DNA of 24,140 nucleotides from a virus: IMG/VR virus record IMGVR_UViG_3300010354_000639, positions 1 through 24,140 of that record; one strand, given 5' to 3'. Both the position numbers and the translations under genes were made by a program. Shown piece by piece: positions 465-11,747 of the stretch. Within the stretch, counting starts at the first letter, position 1. Each line of letters begins with the position of its first letter. Under the pieces are notes generated by a model. That model ran no database searches. It was not told the DNA's origin and saw nothing but the letters and a program-made list of their open reading frames with translations.

Positions 465-2195
465 TCAGATTATCACGTTATAGTTTAATTGTGAATATAA
501 TGTATAAAAATTATCAATATTTGAAGAAGATACCAAGATAACATCAGTTAACGGATCGGATTGAGTTGATTGTGGTTTTTGTGTTCGCTTTTGATTTTGT
601 GGTAAAGTAGATGCAACTATTATTTCTGGTTTCTGTTCTGGTAAAGAAGAAATAGTGGCAGCAGTATTATTTTGTTTCGGTGGAGGTGATATCTGAGCTG
701 CTGGAGTTATTAAAGAATTATTTTCTCCATCTATTTTATTATTTGGATCTATTTTTATCTCAGATTGTAAAACATTATTATTTTTTGCAAAATTATCATT
801 TCTCAAAGTTGAAAACGTTGTTATTCCACTGAATATTGAAGAAAAACTTTGATTTATAATGGGATTAGTAGATCCAGGAGATTGTCTAATATTTGTATTA
901 AAAATATTAGACATATTCTGAGTTAATTTATTTTCTACATTTTCTTGAGAACTTAAATTTGTTTCATTTTTTTGATTTAAAATTTCTTGTGAATTAGAAT
1001 TTTCAGTGCTTGCTGTATTTAAAGCAAATATACTGGAATTTGCTATGTTAGAAATATTTGATTGATTATTTTGACTTACAGTATTGACAAAACTAACATT
1101 GCTGGGATTAGTGGTATTAGAAGTAATGGGATTAGTGGTATTAGAAGTAATGGGATTAGTGGTATTGGAAGTAATGGGGTTGGGGGTATTGGGACTAGGA
1201 GTACTTTTATTTGGTTTTTCTAAATTAGATGTAAATGAACTGGGATTAAAATTACTAACAACTGTATCATACAATTCTTTTGCTTTTTGGCCCCCAAAAA
1301 TGCTTCCAGAAATTCCAGCAGTAATAGTTCCAACAGGACCCAAAGAAGATCCAAGTCTGGCGCCAAGAGATCCGACAATTGCAGTACCAACACCTCCGGC
1401 AATTGCTCTTTTAGGATCTTCTCCAGTCGCTATATCAACAGCAGCAGAAGCTACTCCACCAATACCTGAAGATAATGCTTTTCCTCCAGTTTTAAAAATT
1501 TTACTAAGAATATCATCAGAAGAAACAGAAGCAGTAGAACTAACTGCAGAAGAAGTACCAGAACCTAATCCAGGTATTTTTTTAAATGCATCTGCTACAA
1601 ATTTAATAGGAGATTTTACAAGATTAAGAGCAATCCCCGATATTTTGCCAATTATATTTCCAACAGATTTTGCGATGTTAGAAAATCCATTTTTTAATGA
1701 TGAAATTGTAGATGTAACAAATCCAAGACTTTTAGTAACAAAATTCTTTACATTAGTTAATCCTTTAATAGCAAAACTAGAAATTTTCGAAATTAATGGT
1801 ATAGTTCCTATCGCTAAAAATCCAAAAAGATTACGAATAGATCTTGAAATTGAATCAAATACCGATGTAAGTTTTGGTTCTAAATTTTTAACTGATTGAG
1901 AAAGAGTTGCATCTATTCTTTTTTCTATTTCTTTTTCCGCACCAATTCTTAACTGCCTTTCAGCAGAAATTTTTTCTCTTTTCTGTTCTTCTAAAAGTCT
2001 CGATTCTTCTAATAAACTATCTTTTTTTATAAGAGACCCAATTGAATTTAAACCAGAATTTATTCCAGCAACTTCTGATTGAATATTACTAATTTGACCC
2101 TGTAATGCAAGAATATTTCTACGTTCAATCTCAACAGAACTTTCGTCTGATAAATTTCTATCAGTATTTGGAAGTAATGGTGTAAGTGCGACCAT
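465..2195 (-). CDS. Large virion protein, candidate tape-measure or baseplate-hub protein
   Basis: This is a 576-residue protein. Residues about 20-105 are strongly helical and charged (coiled-coil-like, rich in E/K/Q/R). Several amphipathic or hydrophobic stretches follow at about 115-215, then a Gly/Ala-rich part with glycine-zipper character (SLGARLGSSLGPVGTITAG) at about 240-300. The C-terminal half is very rich in Asn, Ser and Thr and contains three copies of an 8-residue repeat (NPITSNTT). A coiled coil plus hydrophobic helices, and a place immediately after the gp26/chaperone-like pair, are what a tape-measure gene would show; T4 gp29 has a similar length. No clear homology to gp29 is visible, so the role is inferred from layout and composition. 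A NATAAATA late-promoter-like box lies just upstream. Confidence 0.72.
   Translation of the reverse strand: MVALTPLLPNTDRNLSDESSVEIERRNILALQGQISNIQSEVAGINSGLNSIGSLIKKDSLLEESRLLEEQKREKISAERQLRIGAEKEIEKRIDATLSQSVKNLEPKLTSVFDSISRSIRNLFGFLAIGTIPLISKISSFAIKGLTNVKNFVTKSLGFVTSTISSLKNGFSNIAKSVGNIIGKISGIALNLVKSPIKFVADAFKKIPGLGSGTSSAVSSTASVSSDDILSKIFKTGGKALSSGIGGVASAAVDIATGEDPKRAIAGGVGTAIVGSLGARLGSSLGPVGTITAGISGSIFGGQKAKELYDTVVSNFNPSSFTSNLEKPNKSTPSPNTPNPITSNTTNPITSNTTNPITSNTTNPSNVSFVNTVSQNNQSNISNIANSSIFALNTASTENSNSQEILNQKNETNLSSQENVENKLTQNMSNIFNTNIRQSPGSTNPIINQSFSSIFSGITTFSTLRNDNFAKNNNVLQSEIKIDPNNKIDGENNSLITPAAQISPPPKQNNTAATISSLPEQKPEIIVASTLPQNQKRTQKPQSTQSDPLTDVILVSSSNIDNFYTLYSQLNYNVII
1104..1175 (-). 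repeat. 24-bp tandem repeat, three copies, inside the tape-measure-like gene
   Basis: Three consecutive 24-base units (1104-1127, 1128-1151, 1152-1175) differ by a single base, and a degenerate fourth follows to about 1200. Because 24 is a multiple of three the repeat keeps the frame and encodes NPITSNTT three times in the Asn/Ser/Thr-rich linker. Confidence 0.9.
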
Positions 2196-2217: not shown

Positions 2218-2225
2218 TATTTATG
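2218..2225 (-). promoter_or_regulatory. Late-promoter-like box CATAAATA
   Basis: On the minus strand the octamer CATAAATA matches 7 of 8 bases of the T4 late -10 element TATAAATA, and fits the looser NATAAATA form reported for T4-like cyanophages. It overlaps the stop codon of the 57-residue gene and lies 22 bases before the ATG of the 576-residue virion protein, so it could start late transcription of that gene. Confidence 0.5.
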
Positions 2226-2394
2226 AACCTTGGTTCATCTTAAGATTTTCTTCTTCAATATACTGCTGAATAAGACCTACCCATATTTCTCTTTCCCAAG
2301 GTATCATATTTTCTATCTCTGTAATTGAATACTTATGAAATTGGACTAAAGCAAAATTTGTTTTATAATATGACGCAAGATCTTCATGCGCCAT
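2221..2394 (-). CDS. 57-residue protein behind gp26 (gp51-like / GT-type chaperone extension)
   Basis: The reading frame starts at ATG 2394, two bases after the gp26 stop (2397-2399), and encodes 57 residues beginning MAHEDLASYYKTNFALVQFH and containing IENMIPWEREIWVGLIQQYI. T4 gene order places gene 51 directly behind gene 26, and cyanophage genomes often have a short protein of this kind here; I call it gp51-like on position only. There is no Shine-Dalgarno sequence before the ATG. The frame is -1 relative to gp26 and is open back to a slippery heptamer at 2409-2403, so it may be expressed mainly as a C-terminal extension of gp26, as in the lambda G/GT tail-assembly chaperones. The frame and spacing are seen directly; the chaperone role is inference. 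Confidence 0.75.
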   Translation of the reverse strand: MAHEDLASYYKTNFALVQFHKYSITEIENMIPWEREIWVGLIQQYIEEENLKMNQGS

Positions 2395-2409
2395 CGCTAG
2401 GCGAAAAAA
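2370..2409 (-). promoter_or_regulatory. Putative programmed -1 ribosomal frameshift signal (gp26 to 57-aa ORF)
   Basis: At the end of gp26 the codons AGT TTT TTC form the heptamer T TTT TTC (2409-2403) in the correct phase for simultaneous -1 slippage. After slipping, the next codons are CGC CTA GCG ATG, which enter the downstream frame with no stop. Eight bases after the heptamer a hairpin can form: ATGGCGCA (2394-2387) with TGCGTCAT (2377-2370), 8 pairs including one G-U, with a 9-base loop. The product would be about 298 residues. Confidence 0.65.
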
Positions 2410-3116
2410 CTTGTCAGACCCTCCAAAACAACTTCACTTTCTACCCCAGTGTTTGGGTTTTTGAGTTTTACTACATGAGAAAGTTTAGGCATGGTCTCAA
2501 AAAATTTTTCAATTTCTTTGAACTGCTTTGAAGTCAATTGATCTAAAAATTCAGTCAGTTCTTTTTTTGTAATATCCGAAGATGTCCAAGATTCTTCTTC
2601 ATTATAAATTTGTTCTACGCAAGAATAAATCATTTCAAATGTGTCTTCTACGTTTATTTTTCCATTATTTGTAAAGTTATTTTTAACAAATTCATCCATT
2701 GATGGATATTTCATTCTCAAAACTAAATTATCATCTAATTTTATATCTCTATTGTGATTTATATTTTCTTTGACTCTAATTTCATCTAAATTAATTGAAA
2801 TTGGAACTTGAGTTGTTCCATCATCGGGACAAGTAATCAATACATCAACATCTTCTCCTACAGATTTTCCACGAATATTTAAAAACAAATATTCAATATC
2901 AAAAGTTGATAGTTTATCTACTTTAATTCCTTTTGTAACAATGCAGTTTGAAATTACTGTCTTAACAGATTCTGCAATTTGTTTCGGATCTTCACTTTCC
3001 ATCGCAATAATTAAAATCTTTTCTTCCTTTACAAGAAAAGGACGATATTTGATTGTTTTCTTTAATGATGGAATTTCTAATTCGTAAGTTGGTGTTGTAA
3101 TGCGAGGCAAAACCAT
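2397..3116 (-). CDS. gp26: gp26-like baseplate hub protein (T4_baseplate family)
   Basis: This 239-residue protein has the features of the T4 gp26 family found in all T4-like cyanophages: an N-terminal MVLPRITTPTYELEIPSLKK, then KYRPFLVKEEKILIIAMESE, an acidic middle with a CPDDGTTQVPI segment, and a helical C-terminus ending LEGLTSFFA. T4 gp26 is a minor component of the baseplate hub assembly pathway. The gene lies between a tail-tube-fold protein and the tape-measure-like genes. Its last codons contain a T TTT TTC heptamer that may shift some ribosomes into the next frame, which would make gp26 the short form of a two-product chaperone. A GATAAATA late-like box is upstream. Confidence 0.85.
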   Translation of the reverse strand: MVLPRITTPTYELEIPSLKKTIKYRPFLVKEEKILIIAMESEDPKQIAESVKTVISNCIVTKGIKVDKLSTFDIEYLFLNIRGKSVGEDVDVLITCPDDGTTQVPISINLDEIRVKENINHNRDIKLDDNLVLRMKYPSMDEFVKNNFTNNGKINVEDTFEMIYSCVEQIYNEEESWTSSDITKKELTEFLDQLTSKQFKEIEKFFETMPKLSHVVKLKNPNTGVESEVVLEGLTSFFA

Positions 3117-3141: not shown

Positions 3142-3149
3142 TATTTATC
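3142..3149 (-). promoter_or_regulatory. Late-promoter-like box GATAAATA
   Basis: The minus-strand octamer GATAAATA overlaps the stop codon of the upstream gene (3145-3147) and lies 25 bases before the gp26 ATG. It differs from TATAAATA only at its first base. Confidence 0.5.
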
Positions 3150-3924
3150 TCAAAATTATTGGATTAACATTACCTGGTTGATATATAGTACCCCTTACAC
3201 CAGATTCATTTCCTAAAGATTGACCTGTACGATTATAAACTGCATTATTTGGATTATTTGGTTGATTATTATTGGCATTTCCAGTAGAGTAATTTAAACT
3301 CAATGCTCTTCCAGCGATATACCTATCATATTTAAACGCAGCAGATACTTTTAAAATTTCTGAACCATTATATGAAACAGGAACTTGATAAATTTGATAT
3401 GGGAATAAACCAACAAATGTATATTCTATTTCTCTAAAATAACTATAGTCCCTATCAAATTTTACAATTTTTGTCATGTTTGATTTATAAGTGTCTGGAT
3501 ATTGCATTCTTACAAAATATCCATCAACATTTTGTCTAATAGAAGGCAAAGTTCCACTTATATTATTGTGAGAACCACTAGAAATATACTCAACCCAACT
3601 CTCTAAAAAGATTAAAGATCTATAATCCGCATCAACATAAAATTCTAAAGTTATTTCACCAAACATTCTAGCTGTTGCTACATTTTCTTGAATACCCGTA
3701 TAATTTCCATCAACTGATTTTGTTTTTAGAGCACCTGTTGGTAAAGATGCAGAACTACATAACAAACCAGCGTTTTCTGCAATAAAAGAATATTGCACAT
3801 TCCTCACAGACAAATATCTCAAAAGTTCGGTTGGCAATCCACCAAAAATTACTTGGTAGTGAGAAGATTGGGCTAAATTTGTAATTATTGGTTTTATTTC
3901 CGATATTTTAAATTTTTTAGCCAC
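3145..3924 (-). CDS. Tail-tube-fold baseplate protein (gp54/gp19-like)
   Basis: This 259-residue protein starts at GTG 3924; no ATG is available near the N-terminus and the reading MAKKFKISEIK is well formed. Residues about 20-110 contain HYQVIFGGLP, then ASLPTGALKTKSVDGNY and FGEITLEFYVDADYRSLIFL. This pattern (small beta-rich domain with A-LP-G and G-ITLEFY-D segments) is seen in myovirus tail-tube and tube-initiator proteins of cyanophages. After about residue 215 it becomes Asn/Gly-rich and disordered (NANNNQPNNPNN). Close to gp48 and gp26, it most likely corresponds to gp54, the tail-tube initiator, but a tube-like accessory protein is also possible. Confidence 0.65.
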   Translation of the reverse strand: MAKKFKISEIKPIITNLAQSSHYQVIFGGLPTELLRYLSVRNVQYSFIAENAGLLCSSASLPTGALKTKSVDGNYTGIQENVATARMFGEITLEFYVDADYRSLIFLESWVEYISSGSHNNISGTLPSIRQNVDGYFVRMQYPDTYKSNMTKIVKFDRDYSYFREIEYTFVGLFPYQIYQVPVSYNGSEILKVSAAFKYDRYIAGRALSLNYSTGNANNNQPNNPNNAVYNRTGQSLGNESGVRGTIYQPGNVNPIILR

Positions 3925-5723: not shown

Positions 5724-6370
5724 TGACTTATTTCAGAGAACTACCAGATTTACAATATCAATCATTACTTTCAAGTAGGGTTTCCTCTGATGAATACGTT
5801 ACTGTAAAAAATTTATTTCGTAGAGTAAAACTTCGTGATGATTTACAGAATGTTTTTACGATTTTTCAAAAGTATCAAATTCCTGAGGGTGCTCGTCCAG
5901 AAATCGTAGCACAAGATCTTTATGGAAGTGATACTTATGATTGGGTAGTTTTAATTACAGCAGGAATTACAAGAGTTAGAGATCAATGGCCTTTATCAGA
6001 CAAAGATTTATATGAATATGCATTAAACATTTATGGAAATGATTTAAACAATATTCATCATTATGAAACTACAGAAGTAAAAGATAGTGAAGGAAGAATC
6101 ATTCTCCCAGCGGGAAAAATTGTTGATAGCAATTTTACAATTCCAAATCCAATTAATAAACTTGCAACTTTAAATCCCGTCGTTGGAATCAGCAATCATG
6201 AATACGAGACATTTAAAAATAATAAAAAAAGATCAATTTATGTATTAAAAAAAACATATCTACAACAATTTATCAATGACACTAGAAAAGCAATGGTTTA
6301 TGATTTGTCTTCTCAATATGTAGATATAAGAACTATAAAAACAGAAAATACAAGAGTTACTTTACCATAA
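5723..6370 (+). CDS. gp53: Baseplate wedge subunit gp53
   Basis: This 215-residue protein has the gp53 hallmarks: MTYFRELPDLQYQSLL at the start, VKNLFRRVKLRDDLQN, a YQIPEGARPEIVAQDLYGS segment and DTYDWVVLITAGITRVRDQW. gp53 belongs to the T4 baseplate wedge and shares a LysM-like region in many phages. The gene follows gp48 with a one-base stop/start overlap. Its last nine bases overlap the 3' end of the opposing Mom-like gene (stop at 6362-6364), so plus- and minus-strand transcription units collide here without a spacer. Confidence 0.9.
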   Translation: MTYFRELPDLQYQSLLSSRVSSDEYVTVKNLFRRVKLRDDLQNVFTIFQKYQIPEGARPEIVAQDLYGSDTYDWVVLITAGITRVRDQWPLSDKDLYEYALNIYGNDLNNIHHYETTEVKDSEGRIILPAGKIVDSNFTIPNPINKLATLNPVVGISNHEYETFKNNKKRSIYVLKKTYLQQFINDTRKAMVYDLSSQYVDIRTIKTENTRVTLP

Positions 6371-6949
6371 AAGATTTAAATTTTTATCAAAAATCATTAC
6401 ATATCTATGCTTTCTTGACCGATATTTCCATTCACCTTCAACTCCTTTTACTTTACCTCTTGAATGCTTGGTGCCGTCTGCGTAGTAAAAGTCTTTTTTT
6501 GCATCTGTAAGACCTGCATATTTGAAATTGCAAGCCCGATAGATTGTGCCGCTATGAAAATCGCTATCAGCATAAGAAATAATCGCTTTAACTTCCGTGT
6601 CCTTCCGAAACTGTTTGATTGCTTTTGAAACAAACCAAGAAGTAATATTATATTCCGTAGATTGCGTTTCTGGGTGAATACACAATCTGGAGAGTTCAAA
6701 TAATCCTTGTTGTTGGTTTCTCTCAAGACCAAATGCTCCTTTTGCGATTTCTGGCACAGGTAATCCAGTAAAAATACAAACTCCGTGAATACCACCAATA
6801 TTTAATGGAGAAAATTCATTTTTCTTGTATAAACCATAATTATAACCACTCTTAAAGTCTTTAGATATATCTTTTAAGTAATGGTATTCTAATAAAAGTT
6901 CTTCTGCTTGTTTTTTTGTTACTTTATCAATATAAAAATCTTGTTTCAT
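6362..6949 (-). CDS. Mom-like GNAT-fold DNA modification acyltransferase
   Basis: Read from ATG 6949 the product is 195 residues (MKQDFYIDKVTKKQAEELLL). I prefer this start because the longer frame to 6985 runs through the gp32 terminator hairpin and adds 12 residues unlike the family. Landmarks of phage Mu Mom relatives are EYHYLKDISKDF, GYNYGLYKK, GVCIFTGLPVPEIAKGAFGL, LFELSRLCIHP, SWFVSKAIKQF, AIISYADSDFHSGTIYRA and GWxYR-like ends. Mom proteins change adenine in phage DNA to a carbamoylmethyl form that resists host restriction. Relatives occur in many phages including cyanophages. The gene sits directly behind gp32. The chemistry in this phage is not shown by the sequence; a GNAT acting on another substrate is the alternative. 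Confidence 0.75.
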   Translation of the reverse strand: MKQDFYIDKVTKKQAEELLLEYHYLKDISKDFKSGYNYGLYKKNEFSPLNIGGIHGVCIFTGLPVPEIAKGAFGLERNQQQGLFELSRLCIHPETQSTEYNITSWFVSKAIKQFRKDTEVKAIISYADSDFHSGTIYRACNFKYAGLTDAKKDFYYADGTKHSRGKVKGVEGEWKYRSRKHRYVMIFDKNLNLLW

Positions 6950-6976
6950 AAAATAATAGGGGAGATTTCTCTCCCC
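6950..6976 (-). terminator. Hairpin terminator behind gp32
   Basis: Minus strand: GGGGAGA (6976-6970), loop GAAA (a GNRA tetraloop), TCTCCCC (6965-6959), then TATTATTTT. The 7-pair GC-rich stem begins 8 bases after the gp32 stop. T4 gene 32 is likewise followed by a strong terminator. The tract is only partly U-rich, so some read-through into the Mom-like gene is likely. Confidence 0.75.
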
Positions 6977-6984
6977 ACATAACA

Positions 6985-7902
6985 TCAGTTTTCAGCTAGT
7001 TTCTGAAAATAGGATAGAGTTTCATCATCTTCTTCATCATCATAAGAAACTGATTTAGATGGTTTTAGACTATTCAGTTGTTGCTTAAGATCTTGAGGTA
7101 GTTCGCTTGTTGAACCACGATAATCATCCTCATCTTCAACTTCTTCATCAATACGTTGAGATACCTTAACGTTTAGAACTTGATTTAGACGTTGCTTCAG
7201 TTCATTATAACCTTTGAACTTATCTGGAGAAACAAAATCGGAAAGTGAATGTTGAGTTTTCCAAATTGCTTCTAGTTCTTCATCGTCATTCAAAAGAGGA
7301 CCAGGAGATGCAAACTCACTGGAATCGTAATTTCGGTATCCAGCAACATTTTTTGCTTTCAGTTTAAAATTGGCACCTTTCCAGAAATCAAAGGGATCAA
7401 TTGGAGTTTCATCTTCAAATTCTGGTTGCATTGCAGCAGCAATCTTATCAAAGATTTTTTTACCATATTTGAAGAGGAAAGTTTTTCCTTCATTTTCTGG
7501 ATTTGCAGGATCCTTTACAACATAAATGTTACTGATATAGGTCAACTTACGCTTTTGCTTTCTTGCTTGTTCTTTACCCGTATCAGTTCCATTGTTCCAA
7601 AGTTGTGTATTATACTCTGATACGGGATCTTTTTCGCCAATGGTAGTTCTGCTATTTTCAATATACCATCCACCAGGACCTTGAAATCCATGAGAATATA
7701 GTTTTACAAAAGGTAGATCTTCTCCTTCTGGTGCTGGCAAAAAACGAATAATAGCATATCCATTTCCTGCTTTATCTACACTTAGAGACCATACACGATC
7801 ATCAGAAGATGAATTACTAGAATTCATTTTCTCAACTTCTTTTACCAGTTTTTCAGTAAGAGAACCAAGTTTAGATTGTTTTTTTAGATTTTGGAAAGAC
7901 AT
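6985..7902 (-). CDS. gp32: Single-stranded DNA-binding protein gp32
   Basis: A 305-residue T4 gp32 homologue. The N-terminal basic part (KKQSKLGSLTEKL) corresponds to the LAST-type cooperativity region. The OB-fold core includes GNGYAIIRFLPAPEGEDLPF, SHGFQGPGGWYIENS, NIYVVKDPANPENEGKTFLF and KYGKKIFDKIAAAMQPEF. The tail is acidic (EEVEDEDDY, YDDEEDDETLSYFQKLAEN), which in T4 contacts polymerase, helicase loader and recombination proteins. There is no cysteine anywhere in the protein, so the zinc site of T4 gp32 (three Cys and one His) is absent. A perfect-consensus sigma-70 promoter lies 45 bases upstream and a terminator follows. Confidence 0.95.
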   Translation of the reverse strand: MSFQNLKKQSKLGSLTEKLVKEVEKMNSSNSSSDDRVWSLSVDKAGNGYAIIRFLPAPEGEDLPFVKLYSHGFQGPGGWYIENSRTTIGEKDPVSEYNTQLWNNGTDTGKEQARKQKRKLTYISNIYVVKDPANPENEGKTFLFKYGKKIFDKIAAAMQPEFEDETPIDPFDFWKGANFKLKAKNVAGYRNYDSSEFASPGPLLNDDEELEAIWKTQHSLSDFVSPDKFKGYNELKQRLNQVLNVKVSQRIDEEVEDEDDYRGSTSELPQDLKQQLNSLKPSKSVSYDDEEDDETLSYFQKLAEN

Positions 7903-9253: not shown

Positions 9254-9927
9254 GAAGAAATAAGTTCTAATTTATCATTCACGAATTTTTTAATATATTG
9301 AACCACAAGTTTCATATATTTTTTTAAATCTTTTTCTTCATAAATTACACACTCACCATTTTCACAAGTCATTATGATGACCAATTTTTTAATGGGCGTT
9401 TCAGTCATTTCATAGTATGCCATACCATAAAACATTGCCTGAACGAAATATGAAGTAACCCACTCTTTTGGTTTTGGTTTTTTAGATGTTTTAAAGTCAA
9501 TTACAGAAAGTTCACCATCATGTTCCGCAATACAATCAGTTGTTCCCGCAACACCAAGTTGTTTACTGTATAGAGAACCTTCTAAACAATGAATATTATT
9601 AATTCTATTTAACTCTTTTTTCGCAATCTTAAAAAGAAAATCTGGAAGCGGCGGAACCTGCGGTAAGTCCTGATTATAAAGATAGTTTTCCACAAGAGAA
9701 TGAAGGTCTGTACCACGAGAAGTAGCCGCTTTAGTGATTTTTTGCGCCTCATTCTCACCAACCTTTTTGCGCCAGTTATCGAAGATTTCACGATTAAAAT
9801 AACTGATTACAGATGTGATTGAAACTAATTTAAGTGATTGGTCTTCATCAGAAACTTTGTAATATCTTACGCCATCAATAGTCTCACGCTCCAACTTTGG
9901 GAGTTCAATATCAAGATGAGTAAACAT
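9250..9927 (-). CDS. PD-(D/E)XK nuclease (RecB/Cas4-like exonuclease)
   Basis: This 225-residue protein contains the motifs of the PDDEXK_1/RecB nuclease family in order: RGTDLH (residues 71-76, with the catalytic-type His), GVAGTTDC (125-132, metal-binding Asp131), VIDFKTSKK (142-150, Asp144 and Lys146) and QAMFYGMAYY (163-172, the QxxxY motif). No helicase domain or cysteine cluster is present, so it is a stand-alone nuclease. T4-like cyanophages usually carry such an exonuclease near PhoH. It may act in recombination or host DNA breakdown. Its ATG overlaps the PhoH stop (TAATG at 9929-9925). Confidence 0.88.
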   Translation of the reverse strand: MFTHLDIELPKLERETIDGVRYYKVSDEDQSLKLVSITSVISYFNREIFDNWRKKVGENEAQKITKAATSRGTDLHSLVENYLYNQDLPQVPPLPDFLFKIAKKELNRINNIHCLEGSLYSKQLGVAGTTDCIAEHDGELSVIDFKTSKKPKPKEWVTSYFVQAMFYGMAYYEMTETPIKKLVIIMTCENGECVIYEEKDLKKYMKLVVQYIKKFVNDKLELISS

Positions 9928-11747
9928 TACATTCCACTATTCAATTTTGCTACAAGATATTGCTTTACGATTCCTGAGCGAACAATATCATCAATACCAA
10001 ACTCAATAATATCAAAGGAAGGCATAGTTCTAATAATTTTCATAAAATCAACAATCCCATTTCTTTCATTTGTTTTCACTAAATCACTTTGAGATGCGTC
10101 ACCACAGAACATAATCTTACAATTCTCACCAACACGGGTCATAATTGAATCTAATTCATGAAAATTTAAATTGGCAAATTCATCTACAACTACAATAGCA
10201 TTATCAATTGTTACACCACGTAGAAAAGAAGTGCTCCAAAATTTAACTGTTTCTTGTGACTTAAGATTTCCATAAAGCATTTCAAAATCAGCATCACTTG
10301 GCATTTGGAACATGTATTTTACCATATTTTTATATGGTATTTGATAGATGTCTGCTTTATTATCGTGGTCTCCAGGAAGAAAACCAATTTCTCTTGTTGG
10401 AACAAGAGACCTTACGATATAAATTTTTTCATAAGGTGTTCTTTCATCTAAAACATCACGAAGAGCATTATAAAGAGTGATGAATGTATTATGAGTAATA
10501 ATATAATCATCAGTTATGTAAAGATGTTTTTCATCTTCTATCATAATACATTGTGCTTCTTCCTCACCAATGTAATTAACATTTTTAATTTTTCTTCTAT
10601 ATTGAAGTTCATTGTATTTTTCTCTACAACGATCTTTCTTTCTTTGTAGAGAAAATAGTTCTTTTGGATTTCTAACAGTAATCCAAACATTATAAGATCT
10701 TCTACCTATTTTTTTAATACCATCATATGTATATGTTGGAATTTTGGAAGTAATTTTACAAATACCACCTAAAGACCAAATAATTTCTTGAACTTGTTTT
10801 GCCAAAATTTCACTTGTTGTTGAAAATGAAACTGTTCCGGTTTTACAATCAACAGTTCCATCAGTATCCATCAATCCTCTTATAAGATTCAGTTTTTGCT
10901 CTGTTCCAGAATTAATGTATGATGTGGGAATAATTTTCTCATATGATTTTTTACCGTGTATTCCAAGTTCTTTCAATACTTTTGTTACACTATTAAATTT
11001 ATTTTTTCTTGCTAGAGAATCAACAAAATTGTAATCATAATTTGTTTCGCCACAAGATTTTATCGTAATATTTTCATCAAGAATTTCTTGTAAATATTCT
11101 ACTATTTCAGTATCTTTTGTTGTAAATTTAGGAGTATTTGTTGTTAAACAACCATCACCAATTAAACACCCAATAATATAAGGATCTAAAGGTAAATCAA
11201 CATCCCCAGTTTTAATAGGATCAATTAAATCAATTGAAATATTAGTTGTAGATTTTCTAACTTCTTTTTCTCTTAAAAAATCAATAATGTATTGAGTATT
11301 GACTATTTTTTTAGTTCCTCTTTTTCTTCTACTCCAATCACTTGGAGCATTAATTTCCCAAAGATGTTCTAAACAACATCTAGTTTTAGATCCATCGTGA
11401 AAAACAATTTCATAAATGTGCTTTTTTCCTTGAGGGAAAATTCCACAAATTTTTGTTTTTTTACCTGTTGGAGTTAATACATAATCACCAATTTTAATTT
11501 CACTCATAAATTTCCAACCACTAGGAGTTAAAACTTTAGAGTATAATGGTTGTGCTTTACCAGTGCCAGCGGCACCATAAGCAATCAAATGTTTGCCTTC
11601 AGCATAAGAATTAAACAAACGTTTTTGATTTTCTGTTAGAGGGTCAATATCTATAAGATAATCTAAATTGATTGGTTTTTTTCGTTTAATTTGTTTTGTA
11701 GTAAGACCTACACCGATTGGTTGTTCTGCTCTTTTTCTTCTTGCCAT
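9927..11747 (-). CDS. phoH: PhoH-like ATPase interrupted by an intein
   Basis: The 606-residue precursor is a PhoH-family ATPase with an in-frame insertion. N-extein residues 1-64 end in the start of Walker A (GAAGTGK); C-extein residues 421-606 start with the missing Thr. The joined protein has 250 residues with a complete GAAGTGKT, Walker B AIVVVDEFANL, and a CGDASQSD sensor segment. PhoH is very common in marine phages; its role is unproven, with RNA or nucleotide metabolism proposed. The intein cuts Walker A between the essential Lys and Thr, so ATP binding should need splicing. The TAA stop overlaps the downstream nuclease start, and the ATG directly follows the stop of the 80-residue gene. 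Confidence 0.93.
   Translation of the reverse strand: MARRKRAEQPIGVGLTTKQIKRKKPINLDYLIDIDPLTENQKRLFNSYAEGKHLIAYGAAGTGKAQPLYSKVLTPSGWKFMSEIKIGDYVLTPTGKKTKICGIFPQGKKHIYEIVFHDGSKTRCCLEHLWEINAPSDWSRRKRGTKKIVNTQYIIDFLREKEVRKSTTNISIDLIDPIKTGDVDLPLDPYIIGCLIGDGCLTTNTPKFTTKDTEIVEYLQEILDENITIKSCGETNYDYNFVDSLARKNKFNSVTKVLKELGIHGKKSYEKIIPTSYINSGTEQKLNLIRGLMDTDGTVDCKTGTVSFSTTSEILAKQVQEIIWSLGGICKITSKIPTYTYDGIKKIGRRSYNVWITVRNPKELFSLQRKKDRCREKYNELQYRRKIKNVNYIGEEEAQCIMIEDEKHLYITDDYIITHNTFITLYNALRDVLDERTPYEKIYIVRSLVPTREIGFLPGDHDNKADIYQIPYKNMVKYMFQMPSDADFEMLYGNLKSQETVKFWSTSFLRGVTIDNAIVVVDEFANLNFHELDSIMTRVGENCKIMFCGDASQSDLVKTNERNGIVDFMKIIRTMPSFDIIEFGIDDIVRSGIVKQYLVAKLNSGM
10488..11555 (-). mobile_element. LAGLIDADG-bearing class 3-like intein in PhoH Walker A
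   Basis: Precursor residues 65-420 (356 residues) form an intein. The N-terminal block is AQPLYSKVLTPSGWKFMSEI followed by KIGDYVL; the C-terminal end is DDYIITHN, followed by extein Thr421. Residue 1 is Ala, not Cys or Ser. The three class 3 marks are present: Trp130 two residues after the block B His128, Cys400 at block F position 4 (AQCIMIED), and Thr418 before His-Asn. Two LAGLIDADG helices, IIGCLIGDG (191-199) and LIRGLMDTDG (288-297), mark a homing endonuclease likely to be intact. Confidence 0.88.

Follow-up and report, generated by a model that had tools for sequence, protein, structure and literature searches.

In cyanophages, the gene annotated as gp51 has about 20% of its usual length, and in phage Aeh1 it is reported missing (Sullivan et al. 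2010; PMC3037559). Frameshifting in tail-chaperone genes is described as widely conserved, with T4 as an exception (Atkins et al. 2016; PMC5009743). We asked what the small frame behind cyanophage gp26 encodes, and how it is expressed, in a 24-kb cyanophage fragment (hereafter the window, 24,140 nt) that carries the junction genes on its minus strand. Our sequence comparisons make it very probable that gp26 is a tail assembly chaperone produced in two lengths through a −1 frameshift, with stimulatory elements around the slip site.

Layout of the gp26 junction

Read on the minus strand, the junction runs ...CTG ACA AGT TTT TTC GCC TAG CG ATG GCG CAT... The relevant features of the window are as follows.

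3145..3924, minus: preceding gene, tail tube protein (PF23849 Phage_TTP_2, E = 7e-18; phrog_45 tail tube, E = 2.2e-35)
2397..3116, minus: gp26, putative tail assembly chaperone, short form (TAC-N), 239 aa (PF12322 T4_baseplate, E = 1.5e-75; phrog_150 baseplate hub, E = 1.1e-80)
2419..2424, minus: Shine-Dalgarno (SD)-like GGAGGG, candidate internal Shine-Dalgarno stimulator, 9 nt 5′ of the slip site (codon choice; gapless alignment)
2403..2409, minus (reads 2409-2403): slippery heptamer T_TTT_TTC in −1 slip phase (sequence; conservation; codon background)
2221..2409, minus: −1 frame extension, predicted TAC-C / gp51 C-terminal domain, fusion residues 237-298 (phrog_634 baseplate hub assembly catalyst, E = 3.9e-25; phrog_150 positions 239-278; BLASTP to the T4 gp51 C-terminus, E = 3e-6)
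2370..2394, minus: predicted downstream hairpin of 8 pairs (2394-2387 with 2377-2370), 8 nt 3′ of the heptamer, with the ORF57 AUG in its 5′ arm (folding; covariation over 94 sequences)
2221..2394, minus: ORF57, 57 residues, usually annotated as gp51 (ATG at 2394-2392; start codon missing in many relatives)
465..2195, minus: next gene, 576 aa, tape-measure-like (phrog_794 tail length tape measure, E = 1.6e-7, partial match)

An earlier sequence-only reading had placed T TTT TTC in the correct phase at the last gp26 codons, and the heptamer is indeed found there; it is followed by a single sense codon, GCC, and the gp26 stop TAG at 2399-2397. The −1 frame is open back to the heptamer, as that reading also held, with 62 codons running to a stop at 2223-2221. 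Recomputed as 238 + 60, the predicted fusion has the 298 residues originally given, and the 8-pair hairpin proposed 8 bases past the heptamer is likewise present. ORF57 itself is probably not an independent gene.

These elements suggest a simple scheme. Most ribosomes would end at the gp26 stop and release the 239-residue short form, and a minority, we infer, would slip back one base on TTT TTC preceded by T and enter the −1 frame. The slipped ribosomes would complete a 298-residue long form carrying the gp51 C-terminal domain. Two elements probably promote the slip: the upstream GGAGGG, by pairing with 16S rRNA, and the downstream hairpin.

Other frames in the window drew attention in their own right. 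Antisense to the tape-measure-like gene lies a 271-codon open frame (1084-1899, plus), probably a by-product of that gene's repetitive, biased composition. A PhoH-like protein (9927-11747, minus) has its Walker A motif (AAGTGK...HNT) split by an intein-like insertion with LAGLIDADG_3, whose first residue seems to be Ala instead of Cys or Ser. This cyanophage also encodes a Mom-family protein (PF25680, E = 3.8e-25; 6362-6985, minus), from the family to which the DNA modification protein of phage Mu belongs.

Conservation of the predicted slip site and its flanking signals

Comparison with relatives found the heptamer, its phase, the open −1 frame and the hairpin conserved, the check on which the sequence-only reading had staked its frameshift proposal. 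In the first set of loci (L001-L083, including 80 viral-contig loci and two cyanophage isolates), TTTTTTC occupies the same place and phase in 81/83, the exceptions being T4 and a locus with both genes in one frame (L013). A wider set adds Methylophilales-like and more distant phages: T_TTT_TTN stands in the slippery phase in 173 of its 179 loci, which are not all independent, since the window enters a second time as L084 and identical or near-identical sequences occur among them. The base after the in-phase T6 is C in 120 of these 173 loci, A in 28, T in 24 and G in 1. The six loci without an in-phase T6 are a truncated one (L116), T4, the fusion L013 and three distant phages.

Distant holders of the T6 include phiM19, BUCT608, Aeh1, PG216 (KVP40-like), OLIVR6, Melnitz-2, S-PM2, S-CAM4 and Vibrio D479; additional to the 173, it is present in Cronobacter LPCS28 and Pelagibacter HTVC008M. 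The original claim spoke of cyanophages, where it holds, and was too narrow: the arrangement also occurs in Aeh1 and in KVP40-like, Emdodecavirus, Stenotrophomonas, Pelagibacter and Methylophilales phages. A scan of viral contigs with a KVP40-like gp26 returned two loci only.

Codon usage around the site indicates what is being kept. Among 68 less-redundant relatives, the codon 5′ of TTT is AGT, TCT, GCT, AAT or GAT, ending in T throughout: the residue varies, but the T does not. In the rest of gp26, 9 of 24,256 codon positions carry an in-phase T6, and the form xxT TTT TTC appears at none of 104 other Phe-Phe pairs. The less-redundant set was chosen for TTTTTTC, and its TTT/TTC columns are no independent evidence; the unselected heptamer counts are those of the 83- and 179-locus sets. 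Conservation and background counts together rule out a chance T run.

Folding energy alone is a weak guide to the hairpin (z = −2.1 for a 44-nt stretch and −0.85 for 72 nt), and covariation was therefore used, in a gapless alignment of 94 relatives. There the hairpin extends to up to 11 pairs, and standard pairs fill 88.1% of cells, vs. 26-45% with one arm slid. Double-changed cells number 44 vs. 12.8 expected by shuffling, where cells count sequences, not events; pair 45-59, for example, is U-A in 53 and G-C in 30 of the 94 sequences. These compensatory changes argue strongly for the hairpin in terms of covariation, a measure that is not a probability. The ORF57 AUG sits at the base of the 8-pair stem, a point that had been missed. 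In phages beyond the main cyanophage group, the hairpin takes a weaker or different form and is not clearly kept.

Upstream of the slip site, the GGAGGG element had also gone unnoticed. Its Glu codon is GAG in 57/67 relatives vs. a 29% background (binomial P = 2e-21, with related sequences treated as independent), and the preceding Leu codon ends in G in 41/66 vs. 29% (P = 2e-8, on the same treatment). Codon choice thus indicates synonymous selection on GGAGGG. The −1 signal of Escherichia coli dnaX has the same three-part layout of SD-like element, slippery heptamer and hairpin; its heptamer is A_AAA_AAG and its gene is a different one, so the likeness is one of layout only.

Expression of the second frame

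The extension measures 58-69 codons in every untruncated locus, and the second frame is open to the slip site. Its codons 20-52 differ by 0.21/0.05/0.42 at positions 1/2/3; the −1 frame evolves like coding sequence, with second positions diverging least. About 69 loci, including S-CAM4, Aeh1, Melnitz-2 and Vibrio D479, have no ATG, GTG or TTG close to the junction, and fusion is therefore the simplest way to express their second frame. Because of this missing start codon, the gp51 part is unannotated in S-CAM4 (L095), Aeh1 (L089) and LPCS28 (L179), where a gap of about 160-180 nt separates gp26 from the next gene.

In L013 (3001-3891), two bases have been lost at the slip site, and gp26 and gp51 form one frame of 297 aa. 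Unless it reflects an assembly error—which, for a single case, it may—this locus would make only the long chaperone. Together, the start-less relatives and the in-frame homologue point to a fusion product.

Alternatively, ORF57 could be a small gene in its own right, with ribosomes that have terminated on gp26 reinitiating at its ATG, and the T run would be incidental. We regard this as improbable. The ATG is certainly well kept, standing at codon 5 of the −1 frame in 60/64 close cyanophage relatives and only 2 nt after the gp26 stop, and some independent initiation from it is possible. The sequence-only reading had argued from the lack of a Shine-Dalgarno sequence before this ATG; the observation stands (0/64 relatives), but it is not diagnostic and says nothing against initiation, because gp26 rarely has one either (6/68 relatives). 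Yet the AUG lies inside the conserved hairpin, where base pairing can explain its conservation; the heptamer occurs far above codon-usage expectation; about 69 relatives would have no start codon to use; and both L013 and T4 gp51 carry the domain fused.

Junctions that favor reinitiation occur farther afield. The heptamer-less Ackermannviridae-type relatives (L091, L180, L088 and L090) are the Ackermannviridae phages VAP7 and Kuja and the Vibrio phages K362 and K444, in which the T6 is missing and the two-frame arrangement kept. VAP7, K362 and K444 have a TAATG stop-start overlap at the junction. In Kuja, CTT TTT takes the place of the heptamer and the junction has no start codon nearby; for other families, GTTTTT has been put forward as a slip motif (PMC12846349).

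Slippage by RNA polymerase on the T run, rather than by the ribosome, could also yield the −1 frame, and the site does carry runs of 6 to 8 T's; we consider it more improbable still. Polymerase slippage needs no X_XXY_YYZ phase, yet 173/179 loci keep that phase, with C usually ending the run after the sixth T. Bacterial polymerases ordinarily require longer runs to slip, and a hairpin at 8 nt together with an SD-like element at 9 nt fits a ribosomal signal instead. A sequencing or annotation error that splits what is truly one gene, as the single frame of L013 might suggest, is refuted by the number of separate sequences, with the same two frames and heptamer in >170 loci from many metagenomes and isolates. 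Ribosomal frameshifting thus remains by far the most probable reading.

Correspondence with T4 gp26/gp51 and chaperone assignment

ORF57 matches phrog_634 and positions 239-278 of phrog_150, directly past the part matched by gp26. Residues 1-201 of T4 gp51 match PF12322 (E = 3.9e-52), and T4 gp51 follows phrog_150 to its end. T4 gp26 and T4 gp51 can be aligned with each other (E = 2e-6), and the T4 gp51 C-terminus aligns with cyanophage ORF57 (BLASTP, E = 3e-6), and alignment continues through the junction. Membership in the gp26/gp51 family is thus supported by significant profile matches for both the body and the C-terminal domain. These homologies indicate that T4 gp26 and gp51 are paralogues and that T4 gp51 is the long form, in which a gp26-like body is followed by the tail found in the −1 frame of cyanophages. 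By the same comparison, joining of gp26 to the −1 frame is what a cyanophage would need to obtain the matching long form.

In T4, by contrast, 26 and 51 are two separate, divergently oriented genes without a slip site, and the short and long forms are paralogous; the same two products would come from the two genes. Two full-length genes as in T4 were not found: the 24-kb window gave one copy of the body, and tblastn one place per phage record. Since T4 gp51 is a gp26-like body plus this tail, the cyanophage gp51 would not be truncated, nor would Aeh1 lack gp51.

The assignment of chaperone function leans mainly on T4 gp26/gp51 homology, gene order and the literature. By Pfam and PHROG matches of the neighbors, the order is tail tube, chaperone, tape measure (the last a partial match), which agrees with the arrangement that the earlier reading had cited for lambda and P2, directly ahead of the tape measure gene. 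The proposal that gp26 and its follower are the tail-assembly chaperones is likewise supported by T4 homology and gene order; fold comparison adds a weak match to HK97. An AlphaFold2 model of the natural fusion L013 has a mean pLDDT of 85.8, with a low-confidence linker (239-261) right at the junction and helices after it. In a Foldseek search of the PDB, the HK97 tail assembly chaperone (2ob9, 3fgx) had the highest probability (0.57) among the matches listed, at nonsignificant E values of about 2.5-2.8; a comparison with viral models gave matches to baseplate hub chaperones of T4-like phages. A profile search of PDB sequences returned nothing meaningful.

Lambda gpG/gpGT likewise arises by a −1 frameshift near the end of the chaperone gene, ahead of the tape measure gene, with a short and a rarer long form; its slip site, G_GGA_AAG, differs from the cyanophage T_TTT_TTC, and the profile searches made found no sequence similarity to lambda gpG. 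In P2 E/E+E′, the slip site is a T run of the T_TTT_TTN type, again 5′ of the tape measure gene. If lambda gpG/gpGT is a guide, the tape measure protein may be coated by the abundant short form and supplied with tail tube subunits by the rare long one.

Vladimirov and colleagues reportedly found frameshifting conserved in several T4-like groups, with T4 encoding the two forms separately. As described in papers that cite it, their 2022 study identified the T4-like tail assembly chaperones TAC-N and TAC-NC (Vladimirov, Gautam & Davidson 2022, Virology 566:9-15; PMC10885494, PMC12846349). In the same citing papers, some T4-like phages do without frameshifting and have one short gene and one fused long gene (PMC10885494), and poly-T slip signals are known in their TAC-N genes (PMC12846349). 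The remark in the sequence-only reading that a slip site is not commonly cited for T4 genes 26/51 needs correcting: by these accounts, T4-like poly-T slip sites have been published since 2022 (PMC10885494, PMC12846349). The window appears to hold another member of the same gene family with the same poly-T slip idea, so our frameshift finding would be a correct rediscovery, not new in kind. Beside that study as its citing papers present it, this analysis adds breadth, the start-less relatives, the hairpin covariation, the SD-like element and a resolution of Aeh1.

A broader scenario, which we rate a little short of an even chance, combines these elements. The signal would be a dnaX-like, three-part one whose hairpin also hides the ORF57 AUG and so suppresses a free gp51 tail; the T4 group would later have swapped the frameshift for a gene duplication, and an occasional lineage (L013) would have joined the two genes, giving up the short form.

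At the level of annotation, the comparisons indicate that a habit is wrong in very abundant marine viruses: the cyanophage gp51 would not be a shortened gene. Its missing 200 residues would be gp26, joined by predicted frameshifting, which would resolve the apparent absence in Aeh1. T4's exception to the tail-chaperone frameshift rule (PMC5009743) would then be explained by two paralogous genes in place of the slip site.
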